From: Nautiliaceae bacterium
GTDB lineage: Bacteria; Campylobacterota; Campylobacteria; Campylobacterales; Nautiliaceae
Assembly: GCA_027038555.1 (NCBI GenBank)
Contig: JALVVX010000031.1
Coordinates: 1 to 35,955 of the forward strand
DNA: 35,955 bases
Direction of reading: 5' to 3'
Below are positions 27,309 through 35,955 of this stretch, piece after piece (position 1 is the first letter of the stretch; every line of letters starts with the position of its first letter). The notes below the pieces were generated by a model. It searched no databases and was not told the DNA's origin. It was given only the letters and a program-made list of their open reading frames with translations. The translations under genes and the position numbers were made by a program.

Positions 27309-30056
27309 TCAATCCTTTATGTTGTAGTGCAATTCAATTCCCTTACTCGTAGTCACAAACCCTTTTATTATTATTTTTCCTTCATGCACCATTTTATGGT
27401 GTTTTTTACAAAGAGGAATAAGATTATATTTGTGATTTATTGGCATATGATTTATAAAACCTTCTTTTGCCTTTTCTTTTTCTTTTATATGATGCACATC
27501 TTCCACCACTGCCCCGCATATTGCACAAGTAGAGATAAAAAGATTTTTATTATAACGTGAGCGTTTTTTCTTAATTAAAAGTTCAAGCTCATTATATTCG
27601 TTTGTTAGTTTTTTTCTTATATTCTCAGCAGTTTTCAAAAATTCTTCATCCATATATATCGATTTTGCAAATTCAAGTCCATATACACTGCTTCCACTTC
27701 CATCTTTAAGTTTCCTGTCATAAATAAGTTTTTCCCCGTCAAAATAGACTTCAAGATGTTTTGCCACAACGTTTGGCAAATTTTTAATTTCATCCAAATC
27801 CATCAGCTGATGGAGATGAGTGGCAAATACAAATTTTATATGTTTTTTTGAAAGTTTAATTACAGCACTTGCTACAATACTTAAAGCAGAAAGCGTCTCA
27901 GTCCCATGTGCAATCTCATCACCAAGAACCAAAGAATTTTCATCAGCTCTTTTGAAAATGTTTTTAAGTTCTAACATCTCGACAGCAAAAGTAGAAAGCC
28001 CTTTTGAGAGATTATCTTTTGCCTCAATTCTTGTAAAAATTCCCTTAAAAGGCTTATATTCCATCTCACTTGGTACAAAAAAACCGCTTTGTGCCAAAAA
28101 TATTGCAATTCCAACACTTTTCATAAGCGAACTTTTTCCTGAACTATTTATACCATACAAAAGCATACCGTCAAATTCACTAAAATCAACATCATTTGGC
28201 ACATAAACACCGTTTTCCTGATTTGCTTCAATCAATGGATGTCTTAAACCATTTAAAACGGTTTTATTTGATATTTTTGGTCGGAAATATTTTCTCTCTT
28301 TTGCAGTTTTTGCAGATGATATAGCTACATCGATTTTTGCTATTTCACTTGAAAAATCATCTAAAAAATCAAATTTTCTCTCAATCTCACCAAGTGTTTC
28401 AAGATATAATTTTGATGTTCTTTTTATTATTTTACTCTCTAATGCCAAAATCTTTTCACTCAGCTCATCTATAATATCCCCGGTTATTTTTACGGAATTT
28501 GTCAGATGTTTTATATTCAAATCTTTAAAAAATATATTTTTGTTATCCACTTCCATAAATGTATCAACAAATCTGTTTTTAATCAGATTAAATCTGTTTT
28601 TCGTCAGTGTAAGATAATGTCCTTCTTTATCCAAAATTCCAAGTTCTACCTTTACATCCCCAAGTGATTCTATCTTTTCTTTTATTTTGTTCATTTCATT
28701 AACATAATAATTTCTCTCTTTAACCAATTCATCAAGTTCTTTATCAACTCCTTCTTTAAAAAAAGATTCTTTGATGTCTTCAAGTTTTACATTTACTTTA
28801 TCAAGCTCGAAATTATTTTCAAGATAGTCTAAAAAATTATCAAGTTTTGTTGTTTTTTTACGAAGCTTGATATATATTTCAATCCCTGCTTTCAAAGACG
28901 AATATAAAAAATTAATCTCAAAAGGATGAAGCCTTTTTATTTTAATTTTTCTGTTTATTTTTTCTATATCATAAATTTCTTTTAAATATTTTTCAAATTC
29001 TTTATAACGGTTAAGCATATACTCCACTGCTTTATATCTTTTATTTAACTCATCTTCATCAAAAATCGGATTGTAAAGCCTCTCTTTTATAAGACGTCTT
29101 CCCATTGGTGTTTTGGTTTTATCAATAAGTTTTAAAACTTTATTTATTTCAAGCTGTTTTATCGGATTGTTTCCAAGATAGACAAATTTTTCATCTTCAA
29201 TAATTTGCGGCTCTTTTAATTTATTTAAAAGATTTTTATTATGTGTCAATACAAATTCAAGTAAAATTGCAAGCGCTTCCGTAATTAGGGGATATTTTTC
29301 AAGATTCATAACCTCTATTGGACTTAGTAGACTTTGAATATTATAAACTCTTTTAAAAAGCTCGTTTTGATACTCTATTTTCATCCTCGTTTTATTAATT
29401 ACTATATTTTTACCGTCAAGTTCTAAATAATTTATAATTTCATCACATTCTACATTTTTTAGAGTTAAAATTATTTCATTGCTTTTATATGTTTGAAGAA
29501 GCCTAAAAAGTTCATCCAAAGCAAAAGTTTTATCCTCTTTTGTAGAATAATTCTCATATACATAACTTTTACCAGTATTTAGGTCTATATTTGCAAAACC
29601 GACATGAAAGGCACTATACTTTTCAATTATTATACTTGTTACATAATTTTCTTCTGACTTTGAATATTCAATATTTACACCGGGTGATATAATTTCACTA
29701 AGATATCTTTTTACATTAGGGGGAGTTCCTTTTTGTTTAATAAGAATAATTGTATATTTATTCTCATCAATAAGTCTTTCAAGATACCTATCAAGTGCGT
29801 GATTTGGAAAACCAGCCATTAAAGGGTTTTTGACATCAATTTCAGGAATAGATTTATTCTTTTTCGTTAACTGTATATTTAATACATTTGCAATTTCTCT
29901 AGCCTTTCCCACACCTTCTGCCTCATACGTTTCAAAAAAAGTCCCTACTTCCATTAAAACAACAGCATTAGGATAAAGAGAGTCAAAATACCTTTGAATT
30001 TCAAAATATATTTCAGTCAAAAGCTTTTTAGAATTAAGAAGTTTATTAATATCCAT
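27309..30056 (-). CDS. mutS7: MutS7-type mismatch-repair ATPase fused to an HNH endonuclease domain
   Basis: A 915-residue MutS. The N-terminal mismatch-recognition domain has Phe-x-Glu as F40-F-E42 in EVGTFFETYEAE, with the connector, core and clamp domains after it (to about 590). The ATPase has Walker A GINSSGKSS (635-643), a GDE Walker B (712-714) and the ATHLH switch. A zinc HNH domain follows: Cys844/Cys847 (CAIC), HH (855-856), Asn878, Cys883 and HH/H (886-891). MutS with C-terminal HNH is the MutS7 group, known from Campylobacterota, giant viruses and octocoral mitochondria. MutS1 normally needs MutL or MutH for nicking; the fused nuclease could supply it. No mutL is in the window. 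Confidence 0.88.
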   Translation of the reverse strand: MDINKLLNSKKLLTEIYFEIQRYFDSLYPNAVVLMEVGTFFETYEAEGVGKAREIANVLNIQLTKKNKSIPEIDVKNPLMAGFPNHALDRYLERLIDENKYTIILIKQKGTPPNVKRYLSEIISPGVNIEYSKSEENYVTSIIIEKYSAFHVGFANIDLNTGKSYVYENYSTKEDKTFALDELFRLLQTYKSNEIILTLKNVECDEIINYLELDGKNIVINKTRMKIEYQNELFKRVYNIQSLLSPIEVMNLEKYPLITEALAILLEFVLTHNKNLLNKLKEPQIIEDEKFVYLGNNPIKQLEINKVLKLIDKTKTPMGRRLIKERLYNPIFDEDELNKRYKAVEYMLNRYKEFEKYLKEIYDIEKINRKIKIKRLHPFEINFLYSSLKAGIEIYIKLRKKTTKLDNFLDYLENNFELDKVNVKLEDIKESFFKEGVDKELDELVKERNYYVNEMNKIKEKIESLGDVKVELGILDKEGHYLTLTKNRFNLIKNRFVDTFMEVDNKNIFFKDLNIKHLTNSVKITGDIIDELSEKILALESKIIKRTSKLYLETLGEIERKFDFLDDFSSEIAKIDVAISSAKTAKERKYFRPKISNKTVLNGLRHPLIEANQENGVYVPNDVDFSEFDGMLLYGINSSGKSSLMKSVGIAIFLAQSGFFVPSEMEYKPFKGIFTRIEAKDNLSKGLSTFAVEMLELKNIFKRADENSLVLGDEIAHGTETLSALSIVASAVIKLSKKHIKFVFATHLHQLMDLDEIKNLPNVVAKHLEVYFDGEKLIYDRKLKDGSGSSVYGLEFAKSIYMDEEFLKTAENIRKKLTNEYNELELLIKKKRSRYNKNLFISTCAICGAVVEDVHHIKEKEKAKEGFINHMPINHKYNLIPLCKKHHKMVHEGKIIIKGFVTTSKGIELHYNIKD

Positions 30057-30097: not shown

Positions 30098-30373
30098 ATG
30101 AAAAAGTTACTATTTATGGGAATTTTAATATCATTTAGCTTTGCATTTAACTGGAATACGGTTGTTGGATTTTTTAAAAAAACGGTAAATACTCTCAGCT
30201 ATACAATAGAAACAAGTGGAATTAATCCAAGAGTTTATGAATTTGACACTCAAGGATATCCAAGAATGCATTGTGTTGTAATTTTTAGAGATGACCCAAG
30301 AACATCTCCTGCAATGCAATGTATCGAAACAAGACCGGAATACATTAAAATGAATGAAAAATTAGCTAAATAA
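30098..30373 (+). CDS. Small secreted/periplasmic protein, unknown function
   Basis: A 91-residue product. The start at 30098 (MKKLLFMGILISFSFA) is chosen because AAAAAGGA lies 7 bases upstream and it produces a normal signal peptide; an ATG 39 bases upstream lies before the -10 element and has no such site. The mature part (NWNTVVGFFKKTVNTLSYTI, then YPRMHCVVIFRDDPRTSPAM, then CIETRPEYIKM) has two Cys that could form a disulfide. It is divergent from mutS7, and its end overlaps the prmC end by 12 bases. I recognise no family. Confidence 0.65.
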   Translation: MKKLLFMGILISFSFAFNWNTVVGFFKKTVNTLSYTIETSGINPRVYEFDTQGYPRMHCVVIFRDDPRTSPAMQCIETRPEYIKMNEKLAK

Positions 30374-31123
30374 AATCTCAACTCCTCTGACTCTTCCACC
30401 TAAATCTTTAAAAAACTCATATTGACAATCAAAATTTTCCAAAAATTCACTTAAAGGCTTCTTTTGATTATAGCCAATTTCAAGTATCAAATGCTTAATT
30501 TCAAATTTAAGTGCTTTTTTTATAATATCTCTTACAATATCAAGCCCATCCTCTCCACCAAAAAACGCAATATCTGGCTCATATTCATTTGGCTTTTGCC
30601 AAAAATTTTCAACATATGGAGGATTTGCCACCAAAATATCTGCGCTTTCATTAAATAAATCGCATTTTTTAAATTCAATTTCAACACCATGCATTTTTGC
30701 ATTTTTCTTAGCAACTTCCAAAGCCAAATCACTTATATCCGTAGCTATAACTTTTGCATTAGTATGTTTTGCAATCTCAATTGCAATTACCCCGCTTCCC
30801 GTGCAACAGTCTAATACCTTATACTTTTCACTTTTCACTTTACACTTTTCATTTATAACCTCTATTGCCCTCTCAACCACGACCTCAGTATCATCCCTTG
30901 GAATTAAAACACCTTCTTTAATATAAAACTTATCTCCATAAAAATAAACCTCTTCAAAAATATACTCAATCGGATATCCGCTATCAATCTTTTTTTTAAT
31001 TTCAAAATACTCTTTTGGCACTTCCAAATTATCATTCAAAAATAGCCATGCTTTATCTTTATTAAAAAGTTTTTCAAGAATATAACTTCCATTTCGCTCT
31101 TTTAAAACATCTTTAATTTTCAA
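30362..31123 (-). CDS. prmC: Peptide chain release factor N5-glutamine methyltransferase
   Basis: A 253-residue SAM-dependent methyltransferase that modifies the GGQ glutamine of release factors RF1/RF2. The motif GVLIPRDDTE (71-80) replaces the usual IPRPETE but keeps PRxxTE. SAM motif I is VLDCCTGSGVIAIEIA (103-118), with acidic motif II ATDISDLALEVAKKNA and catalytic NPPY (167-170). Residues about 93-102 (KCKVKSEKYK) look inserted and are encoded by a GAAAAGTGAAAAG-type repeat. The start overlaps the condensin ATPase stop by 4 bases (ATGA), so it is the fourth gene of that operon. Confidence 0.93.
   Translation of the reverse strand: MKIKDVLKERNGSYILEKLFNKDKAWLFLNDNLEVPKEYFEIKKKIDSGYPIEYIFEEVYFYGDKFYIKEGVLIPRDDTEVVVERAIEVINEKCKVKSEKYKVLDCCTGSGVIAIEIAKHTNAKVIATDISDLALEVAKKNAKMHGVEIEFKKCDLFNESADILVANPPYVENFWQKPNEYEPDIAFFGGEDGLDIVRDIIKKALKFEIKHLILEIGYNQKKPLSEFLENFDCQYEFFKDLGGRVRGVEILFS
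30822..30853. repeat. TTTTCACTTTTCACTTTACACTTTTCAT repeat inside prmC
   Basis: Degenerate 7-mer units in frame within prmC, between the PRxxTE motif and SAM motif I, encoding KCKVKSEKYK. The sequence resembles the repeat at 8859-8890 closely (shared CACTTTTCA core). The reading frame stays open. Confidence 0.6.
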
Positions 31124-34100
31124 TTTATTTTTATCCCCCCATCAGCTATAAGTTTTACAACTTCAAATTCACCTTTAACATTTCTAAATTTATAAATATC
31201 AATATCATCAACATCTACAAGCGGCAAATCAGGAGTGACATAAATAACTCCAAGACCTTTTTCATTTACAAATTCTTTTAAAAGTTTTTGATTTTTAGTA
31301 GATAGCACACTTACCTCATCTAATATCAAAAATAAATCGGCTTTCTCTTTAATAAATAATTCTAAAAGACTTACAGCAATTGCTATTTTTAAAAGTATAC
31401 TACCTCCTGTTGAGCTTTCATTTTTAATTATTTTTAAAACATTTTCTTTTTCATTCTCTATAAATTTAACACTTATTTCAATTACATCAATAAGCGAAAA
31501 ACTCTCTTTATTAACTTCTTTTTTAATAAATCCTAAAAGCTCTTCAACTTTTTTTAATTTTCTTTCACTATCACTTCTTTCAAAAAACTCATTTTCATTT
31601 TCAATTATCATAAACTCTTCTATGATTTTTCTAATATCTTCAAATACTTTTAAAATATTTCTTTTGCTCTCTTCAATTTCAATTTTTATATTTCTAATAA
31701 TTCCAAAGTCAATTTTGCTTAAATTTTGATTTATTCTTCTTACCTGATTTAAAAATTCCTCTTTACTTCTCTCAAATCCTTCAAGTTTTTTACTTAAAAG
31801 CCCATCAAGTATATTTTTAAGCTCTTTCATTTTAGCTTTTTTAAGCACTTCAAACTTTTTATTTTTAAATAGATACAATTCATCAACTTTTTCAAGCTCC
31901 TCAGGCAGTAAATCAGCAAGTTTTTCAAGAATAAAATTCACATCAAGCCCGTTTATTGAAAATGCAATTAAAGAAGTTTTTATATTACTCGCCACTTCTT
32001 TAAATTCAATTTTCTTTTCACTCAAAAGTGATTTTTTTACTCTGTAATCATTTATTAAGTTTTTCAAAAACTCATTTGTAGGAATTTTCTCTTCACTTAA
32101 AGGAACTTTTTTAACTTCACTTATACCATCTTTTATAATGTCAAGTTTTTCATTTAATTCTTTAACTTCTTTTTCAAAAGCTAAAATTTTTGCATCCACT
32201 TTTGCAAAAAGTTTTTTTGAAAATTCATCAATCCTATTTAAATACTCCTCATATTTTTTTAATTCATTCTCTTTATCTTTTAAAGAATCAATCAATTCTT
32301 TTCTCTTTTTAAATTCCTCTAAAAAAAGCTCACTTTGTTTAATTTTATTTAATCTCTCTTCAATATCTTTAATCTCTTTTTCAATTTCATTAATTCTTTC
32401 ATCTTTTGAAATTTTATTTTTTTTGATATTTAATTCATTTATTTTTTCATCAATAAGTTTTTCTTTAATTTTAAATTTTTCAACAAGCTCATTTCTTTTT
32501 TCTCTAAATTCAGCATCTTTTTGTTTTAAAAGCTCATTAATTTTTTCTTTTTGCTCTTTTTTAAGTCTTTTAATTTTAATTCTTATTTCATTAATTTGAT
32601 TGTTTAAAGATTTTATCATTTCATCTATTTTTTGGATATTCAATTTAATAAGCTTAATCTCTTCATTTTTTATCTCTTCTAACTTTTTAAACTCAATATT
32701 TAATTTTTCATTTAAATTTTTTATCTCTTCATCAATTTCTTTAAATCTTTTTTCAAAATCTTTAATCTTTTCTTCATTTACTTCAATAACTGAATTTATT
32801 TCAATCTCTTTTGATTTTAACTCTTTTTTTAATATTTCAATTTTTTTATCTTTTTCTTCTTTTAAAGATTCTTCAAGAAGATTTAACCTTTTTAATTCTT
32901 CTTCTGCTTTTGCCATAGTCGGAATTGTTTCAAGTTTTGTAGTATCTACTTTAATTGCACACACAGGCTCATTTATTATTTTTGGTTTTAAATCTTTAAT
33001 ATCCATACTCAAAAGTTTTTTATCAATCAAAGGATACAAATCCTCTTCCCAGCCTTCAACATTTTGATTTAAAAACTCTTTAAATGAATTAGGAATAGTT
33101 TTTAAAATATTTTTATAAAAAATTCTTTTTTCTTCTATTTTTTTAATCTCTTCATCAAATTCTCTTAAAATATTCTCTTCTTTTTCTTCGTAATCTCTTT
33201 TTATATGTTTTAACTCTCTTTTTAAATTATAAATCTCATCCATCAATTCATCTTTTTTAGCTCTTAGAGATTTTTTTTCATTAATTAATTTAATTTTTTC
33301 ATCTTCAAAAGCATTTTTAATTTTTTCTTGTTCAATATGGTATTTTTCATTTACTTTTTTAATTTCATCATTTAACTGTTCTTTTTCATCAAGTTTTTTT
33401 TCTATCTCTTTTTTGATATTTTCAATCTCAGTTAAATAATCATTCTCTTTATTTAAAAATTCCTCTTTAATTTTTTCAATTTTCTCTTCATAAATCTCTT
33501 CTAAATTTCTTTTTAAAACAATCTCTTCTTCTTTTAATCTCTCTTTTAAAATTCTTTTTTCTCTTTTGTTTCTTTCAATCTCTTCATCAATCTCATCTAT
33601 TTGACTTTTTATCCCTTTAATCAGCTCATTTAATGAAGTTCTAAGAGCAATTAATCTTTTTTCCAACTCTTCTTTTTTAGCTACTTCACTTCTTGCATTT
33701 TGTAATTTTTCAATACTAAATTTCTCTTTTAAAGATTTTATCTCTTCAATAATCTTTTTTAAATCAAAAATTTCATTTTTAATATTCTCTTCTAACGCTC
33801 TTATTTTTTTCTCAAAAAGCCCGTATTGCTTTCTTTTTTTATTGATTTTTCTCTCAATCTCTGCAATTTTTTTTATAAGCTCATCAACTTCTTTCTCTTC
33901 AATTTCTTTACGATAAGCTATTTTTGCAAGCAGGGTTTTAACTTCTTCATCTAAATTTAAAAGCGTATTTTTTAAATCATATAATTTTTCTATGTTTGAG
34001 AATTGATTTTTAAACCTGTTATAAAAAACAAAATATTTTCTAAAAATAGAAATTTCATCTAAGAAATTTTCATAATCAATCTCACCCGCCTCAACCCTAT

Positions 34101-34656
34101 CAAGTGTTGTAAAAATAACCTCTTTTATAGAATTTGCATCAAAAACGGCTTTGTTTACATTAAAAATTTTATTGTAAAGATTTATAAAAGTATTGTAATT
34201 TCTAATGGTTGTTAGTTTAAAATCAAGATGTTTCCTATCAAGCCCGTAAATTATTTTTTTATACTCTTCATTTGTAGGAGGAGAATATTTTAACTCTGCG
34301 CTTTTTGCATAATTTATCATACTCTCAAAGTCATTAGTATCAACCTCTTTTACATTAAATTTTTTCTTACTGAAAATCCTTTTAATTTCCCCTCTTTTTT
34401 TATACATCAATACAAAATATTCTTCAAACTCATAAACAATAAAAGAGTTGTCATACTTAAAATAAAAATTCTTAAAACTCTCTTTATTAGCATCAATTCC
34501 AAGAGCTTTTACATCGGAGTTGTAAAAAAAGTGAATTGCCCTTATTGCAGTTGTTTTACCGCTTCCGTTATCCCCTACAAAAAATATGTTTTTTTTGCTT
34601 AAATCAATCTCAGCATAAGGAAAGTTTGCCGCATTAAAAAAATATATCTTTTTCAT
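31120..34656 (-). CDS. SMC-type condensin ATPase, MksB/JetC-like
   Basis: A 1178-residue SMC protein. Head N-half: MKKIYFFNAANFPYAEIDLS with Walker A GDNGSGKT (28-35). Two very long coiled-coil arms (about 245-515 and 585-1010) flank a small hinge at about 518-582 (SFKEFLNQNVEGWEEDLYPL) of the MksB/MukB/JetC kind rather than the larger Smc hinge. Head C-half: signature SSTGGSILLKIAIAVSLL (1081-1098) and Walker B LFLILDEVS (Asp1113-Glu1114). It overlaps both the upstream MksE-like gene and the downstream prmC by ATGA. Relatives either compact chromosomes (MksBEF) or extrude loops and recognise plasmids (Wadjet JetABC). Which applies here is undecided. Confidence 0.85.
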   Translation of the reverse strand: MKKIYFFNAANFPYAEIDLSKKNIFFVGDNGSGKTTAIRAIHFFYNSDVKALGIDANKESFKNFYFKYDNSFIVYEFEEYFVLMYKKRGEIKRIFSKKKFNVKEVDTNDFESMINYAKSAELKYSPPTNEEYKKIIYGLDRKHLDFKLTTIRNYNTFINLYNKIFNVNKAVFDANSIKEVIFTTLDRVEAGEIDYENFLDEISIFRKYFVFYNRFKNQFSNIEKLYDLKNTLLNLDEEVKTLLAKIAYRKEIEEKEVDELIKKIAEIERKINKKRKQYGLFEKKIRALEENIKNEIFDLKKIIEEIKSLKEKFSIEKLQNARSEVAKKEELEKRLIALRTSLNELIKGIKSQIDEIDEEIERNKREKRILKERLKEEEIVLKRNLEEIYEEKIEKIKEEFLNKENDYLTEIENIKKEIEKKLDEKEQLNDEIKKVNEKYHIEQEKIKNAFEDEKIKLINEKKSLRAKKDELMDEIYNLKRELKHIKRDYEEKEENILREFDEEIKKIEEKRIFYKNILKTIPNSFKEFLNQNVEGWEEDLYPLIDKKLLSMDIKDLKPKIINEPVCAIKVDTTKLETIPTMAKAEEELKRLNLLEESLKEEKDKKIEILKKELKSKEIEINSVIEVNEEKIKDFEKRFKEIDEEIKNLNEKLNIEFKKLEEIKNEEIKLIKLNIQKIDEMIKSLNNQINEIRIKIKRLKKEQKEKINELLKQKDAEFREKRNELVEKFKIKEKLIDEKINELNIKKNKISKDERINEIEKEIKDIEERLNKIKQSELFLEEFKKRKELIDSLKDKENELKKYEEYLNRIDEFSKKLFAKVDAKILAFEKEVKELNEKLDIIKDGISEVKKVPLSEEKIPTNEFLKNLINDYRVKKSLLSEKKIEFKEVASNIKTSLIAFSINGLDVNFILEKLADLLPEELEKVDELYLFKNKKFEVLKKAKMKELKNILDGLLSKKLEGFERSKEEFLNQVRRINQNLSKIDFGIIRNIKIEIEESKRNILKVFEDIRKIIEEFMIIENENEFFERSDSERKLKKVEELLGFIKKEVNKESFSLIDVIEISVKFIENEKENVLKIIKNESSTGGSILLKIAIAVSLLELFIKEKADLFLILDEVSVLSTKNQKLLKEFVNEKGLGVIYVTPDLPLVDVDDIDIYKFRNVKGEFEVVKLIADGGIKIN

Positions 34657-35162
34657 TCTTCTCCTTCAACTAAATCTACAATATCAAGATAATAATCGAT
34701 TGCATTTAAAACAAGATATTCATCTTTGTTTTTAGATTCAATTACATAATTTCTATCAAGCAAATTAAAAAGTTTTTCGGTAATTTCCATCAAATCATTT
34801 GTATTAAAAAGGTATTTAATAATTTTTTCATCTTTTTTTGAATCAAATCTTTTTATAAATTCACTCTTTTTAATTTTATGTCCTTTATCAAGATGGACAA
34901 AAACTTTTTTAAGCTGAGCTATTGCCAAAATTACATTTTTATGAGAATTAAAAAATTTCTCTTCTTCATCCGCTTTTAATTCTTTACTCAAATAGAAATA
35001 TCCATTCTCTCCAACAAGATAAAATCCAAGCCTATTAAGCAAAGCATTAAATGAATTAAAATTATCTTCATCAAGTAGATACATTGCTTCATTTTTATAT
35101 TTTGAAGAATTAAGAGAAATTATCACTCCTTTTGATAAAACATCAAAAATCACTTCTTCCAT
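34653..35162 (-). CDS. MksE/JetB-like condensin accessory subunit
   Basis: 169 residues, winged-helix rich. The segment NALLNRLGFYLVGENGYFYL (about 38-57) is the MukE/MksE/DUF4194-type strand-turn that precedes the wing. Then a helix-rich centre and an acidic end (YYLDIVDLVEGEE) follow. The family binds the kleisin and DNA and bridges it to the SMC heads. Overlaps: 13 bases with the upstream kleisin-like gene and 4 bases with the ATPase gene. Identification depends on position as much as on sequence. Confidence 0.72.
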   Translation of the reverse strand: MEEVIFDVLSKGVIISLNSSKYKNEAMYLLDEDNFNSFNALLNRLGFYLVGENGYFYLSKELKADEEEKFFNSHKNVILAIAQLKKVFVHLDKGHKIKKSEFIKRFDSKKDEKIIKYLFNTNDLMEITEKLFNLLDRNYVIESKNKDEYLVLNAIDYYLDIVDLVEGEE

Positions 35163-35955
35163 TTTACAACCTTTACATTAAATTCATTATACTCTTTTTC
35201 ATATGCAAGATATTTGTCATAATGATTAAGTATATACACAAATACCCTCACACTCTCATTTAAAAGCTCTTTATCAATTTCTCCCACATATTCAATAATG
35301 CTTTTAAAAATATCTTCACTTCCTCTTATAAATTTTAAAAGATTTTTTAAATCGATTAAATTTATAACCTCTTCAAATGTCCTTACTTCACTTTTTTTAA
35401 TAATCTTTTCTTTTTTAATATCTCCTATTATTTTTTTGATTTTTGAAGTGTTTATATAAGCAGTATCAGGAAGAGGCGTTATTTTTTGTTTATAAACAAA
35501 TCTTTTACTCATTAAAAAATTATCAATTTTTTTATTTTCGTTTATTATATCGCCTGCAAGTTTAAAAAGTTTTTGATTAAATCTTCTTTTTCTCTCAGTT
35601 TGAGCGATAAATTCTTGAAGTCTTTTTAAGTAAGAGTCAATATTTTGATTAAGCATCACAAGCTCAAATAAAATATCTTTTATAAATTCACTAAATTCTT
35701 CAAACTCCAAAAACGTCTCAAATACAAAATAAATTTTTTCATTCTTATCCATAATTTCGGTTATTCTATCAAGTATGCTTTTAGCTTCTTTAATCAAAAA
35801 GTCAAGCTCACTTTCAGCATCGTTTTCCAAATTTTCAATTAATGCTTTTACTCTTTTATCCCTGTTTTGCATTCCCTGATAAATTTTATTTAAAAGCTTT
35901 ATAATTAGCTCATAAACGCTATTTGAATGTTTTAATTTATACTCTTCTTTTAAAG
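35150..35955 (-). CDS. MksF/JetA-like kleisin subunit (5'-truncated by window)
   Basis: The visible 267 residues are the C-terminal part; the frame is open beyond an internal Met at 35872 to the window edge (residues LKEEYKLKHSNSVYELIIKL precede it), so the true start is outside the window. It is almost wholly helical and charged: LIENLENDAESELDFLIKEA, IYFVFETFLEFEEF and a C-terminal YDKYLAYEKEYNEFNVKVVK. Family MksF/MukF/JetA proteins are about 400-500 residues. Order F-E-B with overlaps of 13 and 4 bases matches known condensin operons. It has no catalytic motif, and the assignment follows the adjacent SMC ATPase. Confidence 0.65.
   Translation of the reverse strand, partial: LKEEYKLKHSNSVYELIIKLLNKIYQGMQNRDKRVKALIENLENDAESELDFLIKEAKSILDRITEIMDKNEKIYFVFETFLEFEEFSEFIKDILFELVMLNQNIDSYLKRLQEFIAQTERKRRFNQKLFKLAGDIINENKKIDNFLMSKRFVYKQKITPLPDTAYINTSKIKKIIGDIKKEKIIKKSEVRTFEEVINLIDLKNLLKFIRGSEDIFKSIIEYVGEIDKELLNESVRVFVYILNHYDKYLAYEKEYNEFNVKVVKWKK

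Follow-up and report, generated by a model that had tools for sequence, protein, structure and literature searches.

In the plasmid-cutting Wadjet systems, the executor is the nuclease JetD (PMC10586767; PMC10123090). One view of the MksBEF system of Pseudomonas aeruginosa is that of a JetABCD lacking JetD, and the MksBEF condensins, perhaps also MukBEF, have been proposed to derive from plasmid-cutting Wadjet systems via loss of the nuclease (PMC10586767). The MksB protein of Borrelia burgdorferi has been shown by Hi-C to promote long-range chromosome contacts (PMC10406323). Here we describe a locus from the Nautiliaceae, a family in which nuclease-bearing, nuclease-free and empty versions are found at one site, which looks like the proposed step. 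A route known as a proposal for the Pseudomonas MksBEF appears to have been taken repeatedly within a single family.

The window analyzed here is the entire 35,955-nt contig JALVVX010000031.1 (C31 of genome G000 in our labels), one of 51 contigs in a 97%-complete assembly (GCA_027038555.1) of a Nautiliaceae bacterium from a deep-sea vent. At one end it carries four genes in the order mksF-mksE-mksB-prmC, all on the minus strand (Table 1). The successive overlaps of 13 (35150-35162), 4 (34653-34656) and 4 bases that the original prediction had listed are confirmed, as is its statement that no nuclease gene follows the ATPase gene: none lies between mksB and prmC.

Table 1. Features of the mksFEB-prmC segment, with positions in the window.
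Feature	Position	Strand	Evidence
mksF, kleisin subunit, 3' 267 codons	35150..35955	-	open frame; homologue in G004; MukF-like fold matches of the homologue
mksE, KITE subunit, 169 aa	34653..35162	-	Pfam PF21980 MksE, 7e-15
mksB, MukB/MksB-type SMC ATPase, 1178 aa	31120..34656	-	PF12128, 2.2e-20; orthologues across Nautiliaceae
Walker A (GDNGSGKT) of MksB	34552..34575	-	P-loop conserved in alignment A6
ABC signature region (SSTGGS) of MksB	31399..31416	-	identical in all Nautiliaceae copies, with or without nuclease
Walker B (LFLILDE) of MksB	31315..31335	-	intact in all Nautiliaceae copies
TTGA overlap of mksB stop and prmC start	31120..31123	-	junction comparison; compact MksG gene lies here in nuclease-bearing sisters
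prmC, peptide chain release factor N5-glutamine methyltransferase, 253 aa	30362..31123	-	TIGR03534, above cut-off

The identification of the trio as a kleisin, an MksE-like subunit and an SMC ATPase of the MksFEB/JetABC type is borne out by profile searches, although not evenly so. MksE scores 56.2 bits against a cut-off of 27 bits, MksB passes the DUF3584 model and displays the Walker A, signature and Walker B motifs of an SMC-type ATPase along with a long coiled coil, and PrmC narrowly clears its model (200.2 against 199.1 bits). In contrast, nothing in Pfam, NCBIfam or PADLOC matched the window MksF above cut-off, and the PADLOC JetA and JetB models did not match the window F and E proteins. 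Neither RecN nor Rad50 is among the Pfam, NCBIfam and PADLOC matches listed for the window proteins, and the condensin assignment holds against both. For the kleisin, we turned to the homologue from a member of the same genus (G004), whose model (mean pLDDT 63) features a winged-helix/helical-bundle/winged-helix layout with C-terminal strand elements. A fold search with this moderate-confidence model recovered MukF chains from the PDB at ranks 1, 2, 4, 6, 7 and 10, with weak E-values of 0.009 and up. Together with the gene position, the predicted layout and these repeated matches weakly suggest that mksF codes for a MukF-like kleisin.

The N-terminus of this kleisin lies beyond the DNA available. 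The mksF reading frame runs on to the very edge of the contig, and the window aligns to residues 82-348 of the 348-aa G004 homologue with 84% identity; as the window is the whole contig, the gene is cut short with about 81 N-terminal residues missing. The 240-aa kleisin originally called from the ATG at 35872 is accordingly an artefact of an internal codon.

Comparison with the described systems places the locus close to several of them. Judged by its subunit set, with the Pfam MksE match and a tentative kleisin, it shares with the P. aeruginosa MksBEF the same three subunits in a cassette without a nuclease gene; here, no Smc-ScpAB was detected alongside, and versions with and without the nuclease are found at one chromosomal site within one family. 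With type I Wadjet (JetABCD) it has in common the kleisin-KITE-SMC order, and sister loci add a JetD_C-family nuclease after the SMC gene; however, the PF09983 and A1 profiles found no JetD/MksG in the genome of the window, and the nuclease of the sisters is only about 246 aa long. The PADLOC JetC model matches the window MksB at 1e-4 only, whereas the same set of models, with a type I Wadjet in another member of the family (G005) as positive control, detects that locus with E = 0 for JetC, 1e-143 for JetD and values up to 1e-57. The MukB/MksB-type SMC and the leading position of MukF structures in the kleisin fold search recall MukBEF, but the kleisin here has about 348 aa as against 431 residues in the matched MukF chain. 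No relatives of the F, E, B or nuclease sequence profiles were found among solved structures, and MksB in particular has no detectable sequence relative among the solved MukB or JetC chains. Borrelia differs in having a canonical Smc and no MksE or MksF, both of which are kept here. Smc-ScpAB itself is a poor fit, as neither ScpA nor an Smc above the TIGR02168 cut-off was found in the genome of the window. As for Lamassu, the LmuB match (7e-10) is limited to the second coiled coil and C-terminus of MksB, and beside mksB there is no match to LmuA, the neighbours being MksE and the kleisin. We rejected the MksB matches to TIGR02168 and LmuB as chiefly reflecting coiled-coil similarity.

The Nautiliaceae loci differ with respect to the nuclease. 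In three genomes (G012, G015 and G019) a compact gene of about 246 codons, hereafter MksG, lies 3' of mksB, and its product matches JetD_C (PF09983) at 4e-9 to 8e-9 with invariant Toprim-type acidic residues (E131, E134, D174 and D176 in alignment A1). That a JetD-type nuclease belongs in the slot after the ATPase, as originally supposed, is thus upheld by sister genomes G012 and G015. The compact protein matches the PADLOC JetD1 models in its C-terminal Toprim part only, and this in two copies, with none in two others; such loci are therefore probably under-annotated, being poorly covered by the defense-system models. Its AlphaFold model is poor (pLDDT 54, two sequences). In other families of the order, the compact MksG (L111, L115 and L120) shows a match just under cut-off to Pfam DUF7281 (PF23947), which suggests from sequence that DUF7281 is a related Toprim-type domain.

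The remaining cassette carriers of the family, six or seven including the window, lack the nuclease. In five of these (G004, G008, G009, G010 and G017), F-E-B is present and the flanking genes were read. Neither the PF09983 nor the A1 profile found a nuclease anywhere in these five genomes or in G000, and no nuclease relic was found at the nuclease-free Nautiliaceae loci. G005 is likewise without the compact nuclease but has its separate textbook type I Wadjet. Of the two outcomes originally laid out, a stand-alone condensin or a Wadjet with its jetD beyond the window, the former is the better. The G000 genome yielded no jetD relative; a trans-acting nuclease diverged past detection may exist. 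We also considered whether an N-terminal motif of MksE marks nuclease-bearing systems, but it failed to separate the two groups.

The cassette lies at a defined chromosomal site. In G004, G008, G009, G012, G015 and G017 it is found between genes for a short-chain dehydrogenase (SDR) and PrmC, with an HI0933-type flavoprotein gene beside the SDR upstream of the cassette in G009. Where the cassette is absent, the SDR directly adjoins prmC with the same 4-base TTGA overlap (G006 and G014), or is separated from it by the flavoprotein gene (G013, of the same genus as G009) or by an inserted opposite-strand gene (G011), while in G007 a peptidase gene precedes prmC. G010 has F-E-B at a different site, without prmC. 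The window also has, at 27309-30056 on the minus strand, a gene for a 915-aa MutS-family protein with domains I, III and V and a C-terminal HNH endonuclease domain (PF13391), a neighbour of the locus that is conserved across the Nautiliaceae. Since the upstream gene adjoins prmC where the cassette is missing, and does so with the same overlap in G006 and G014, gene order indicates that prmC is the ancestral downstream neighbour of the site, with no functional partnership. The idea that prmC took over the nuclease slot fails for the same reason, and the F-E-B-prmC order holds in only a part of the Nautiliaceae, with F-E-B-G-prmC occurring as well.

Orthologues of MksB were found in 10 of 21 Nautiliaceae genomes, including one 3' fragment (G005), and MksE in 25 of 399 genomes of the order. 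As the cassette is missing from half of the family, it is dispensable and not an essential housekeeping condensin. In a tree of concatenated F, E and B, the Nautiliaceae copies group together with support of 100 on the branch to the other families; within this group, copies with the nuclease are intermixed with copies that lack it, and the tree of the nuclease itself is congruent within the family. Elsewhere in the order the small nuclease is typically encoded upstream of mksF (G029, G066, G096, G151, G181 and G232), once as a partial gene where a contig stops (G127), once 8 kb upstream and separated from mksF by restriction genes (G371), and twice on another contig than F-E-B (G275 and G319); G226 has the order F-E-B-G, and G103 is without a nuclease. 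G371 and G275, which had been candidates for nuclease-free systems, were not scored as losses because the genome-wide search recovered their nucleases. An ancestral nuclease would require about four losses (in G010; in the ancestor shared by G009 and the window genus; in G017; and in G008), against about two gains and one loss under the converse scenario. We prefer loss over repeated gain at one slot, a direction of change that is inferred from the unchanging slot, the agreement of the trees and the presence of the nuclease in outgroup families.

We thus consider it probable (roughly 60%) that the locus is a complete-looking, nuclease-free MksBEF-type condensin that descended from a four-gene MksFEBG by loss of the nuclease. 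The ancestor of the Nautiliaceae would have had a Wadjet-like MksFEBG plasmid-restriction cassette between the SDR gene and prmC; the gene for the small Toprim nuclease would then have been cleanly deleted in several lineages, including that of the window, with F, E and B retained and the coupling to prmC inherited from the neighbourhood of the ancestral site. By homology, MksB dimers, bridged by MksF as kleisin and MksE as KITE subunit, would be driven by ATP to capture and extrude DNA loops, and this loop extrusion would organize the chromosome or aid its segregation. Among the genomes of the order searched for other condensins (G000 and 40 relatives), ScpA was found in none of the 41, as against 9 of 14 control genomes, and no protein exceeded the SMC cut-off of TIGR02168, all SMC matches falling far below it. 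Since no Smc-ScpAB was found, MksFEB, where present, is the sole condensin detected, except for the additional Wadjet of G005. By analogy with the P. aeruginosa MksBEF and the Borrelia MksB, chromosome organization is the most likely role without the nuclease, and the role of such a motor in the chromosome after nuclease loss becomes testable in bacteria with no other detected condensin.

The strongest competing view, which we regard as possible but unlikely, is that the system still acts in defense, with F-E-B sensing and compacting circular plasmids and either acting without cutting, through silencing or mis-segregation, or using another effector nearby or in trans. The patchy presence of the cassette and its defense-rich setting speak for this view: McrB- and McrC-like genes lie between mksB and the nuclease in G012 (L019 4421-7424), genes for a WD40-GTPase and a metallophosphoesterase lie between mksB and prmC in G008, and in G371 a type IIG restriction-methylase and a PLD/SNF2 helicase are encoded between the nuclease and mksF (L108 10260-17408). 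Against it, no effector candidate is found beside the cassette in the window, G004 or G017; the sole extra gene in G009, that for the HI0933-type flavoprotein, is also present at a site without the cassette; and suppression of plasmid transformation in B. subtilis needs all four Wadjet subunits (PMC10586767). The mksFEB slot behaves as a defense insertion site, as seen from the McrBC insertion in G012. The nuclease slot in G008 (L021 12219-16672) is filled by a WD40 protein with 12 repeats and a GTPase-like end together with the calcineurin-type metallophosphoesterase, which matches a PADLOC "Effector" endonuclease model (5e-18); the two are a possible new defense pair. We tentatively entertain the wider notion that MksFEB forms, in the Nautiliaceae, a core module that does not depend on its effector. 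The cassette would repeatedly shed its nuclease and be kept as the only condensin of cells lacking Smc-ScpAB or, in some species such as G008, with a swapped effector, such that defense machine and chromosome organizer interconvert at one site.

It is improbable that the locus of the window is a decaying remnant, in which the nuclease was lost and F-E-B is in turn disappearing. Such decay would fit with the several relatives that lack the whole cassette and with the broken mksB of G270, from another family. However, mksE and mksB are intact, as is the part of mksF that the window contains. For the nuclease-free pair G000/G004, dN/dS is 0.105 for F, 0.041 for E and 0.132 for B, with prmC (0.074) and mutS (0.055) as comparison genes, and the ratio of the dN of B to that of prmC is alike with and without the nuclease (mostly 1.1-1.5). 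These low values and the similar rates in the absence of the nuclease indicate that the trio is maintained under purifying selection.

Also improbable is an ordinary four-gene MksFEBG with its nuclease hidden upstream of mksF in an assembly gap. Other families do show the order G-F-E-B, and the upstream side of the window falls in such a gap: the missing start of mksF and the orthologous SDR neighbour were not found elsewhere in the G000 assembly, and hence a nuclease there is excluded by synteny with relatives alone. Yet, where the family has the nuclease it is downstream, no Nautiliaceae locus with its upstream side read has one there, and in G004 the SDR gene abuts mksF. Finally, the 4-base mksB-prmC overlap might suggest that condensin and PrmC work as one unit in which the methylation of release factors is coupled to the folding of the chromosome. 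This is very improbable, as prmC has an identical overlap where the SDR or nuclease gene precedes it instead, and outside the Nautiliaceae prmC was next to no cassette that we examined in the order.

Further variants of these genes were encountered in the survey. One metagenome-assembled genome (G019) has two copies of F-E-B (L015 and L016, on contigs C162 and C136), one of them at the SDR site, which may represent two cassettes or a mixed bin. G024 (L024 6976-12463) codes for an orphan MksB-like ATPase, about 30% identical and without MksE or MksF, that adjoins an ATPase of the AAA_15 type with similarity to PD-T4-4 and OLD proteins. In G270 (L118 6794-10485), mksB is in pieces with an opposite-strand ORF resembling a transposase helper between them, pointing to a decayed cassette.
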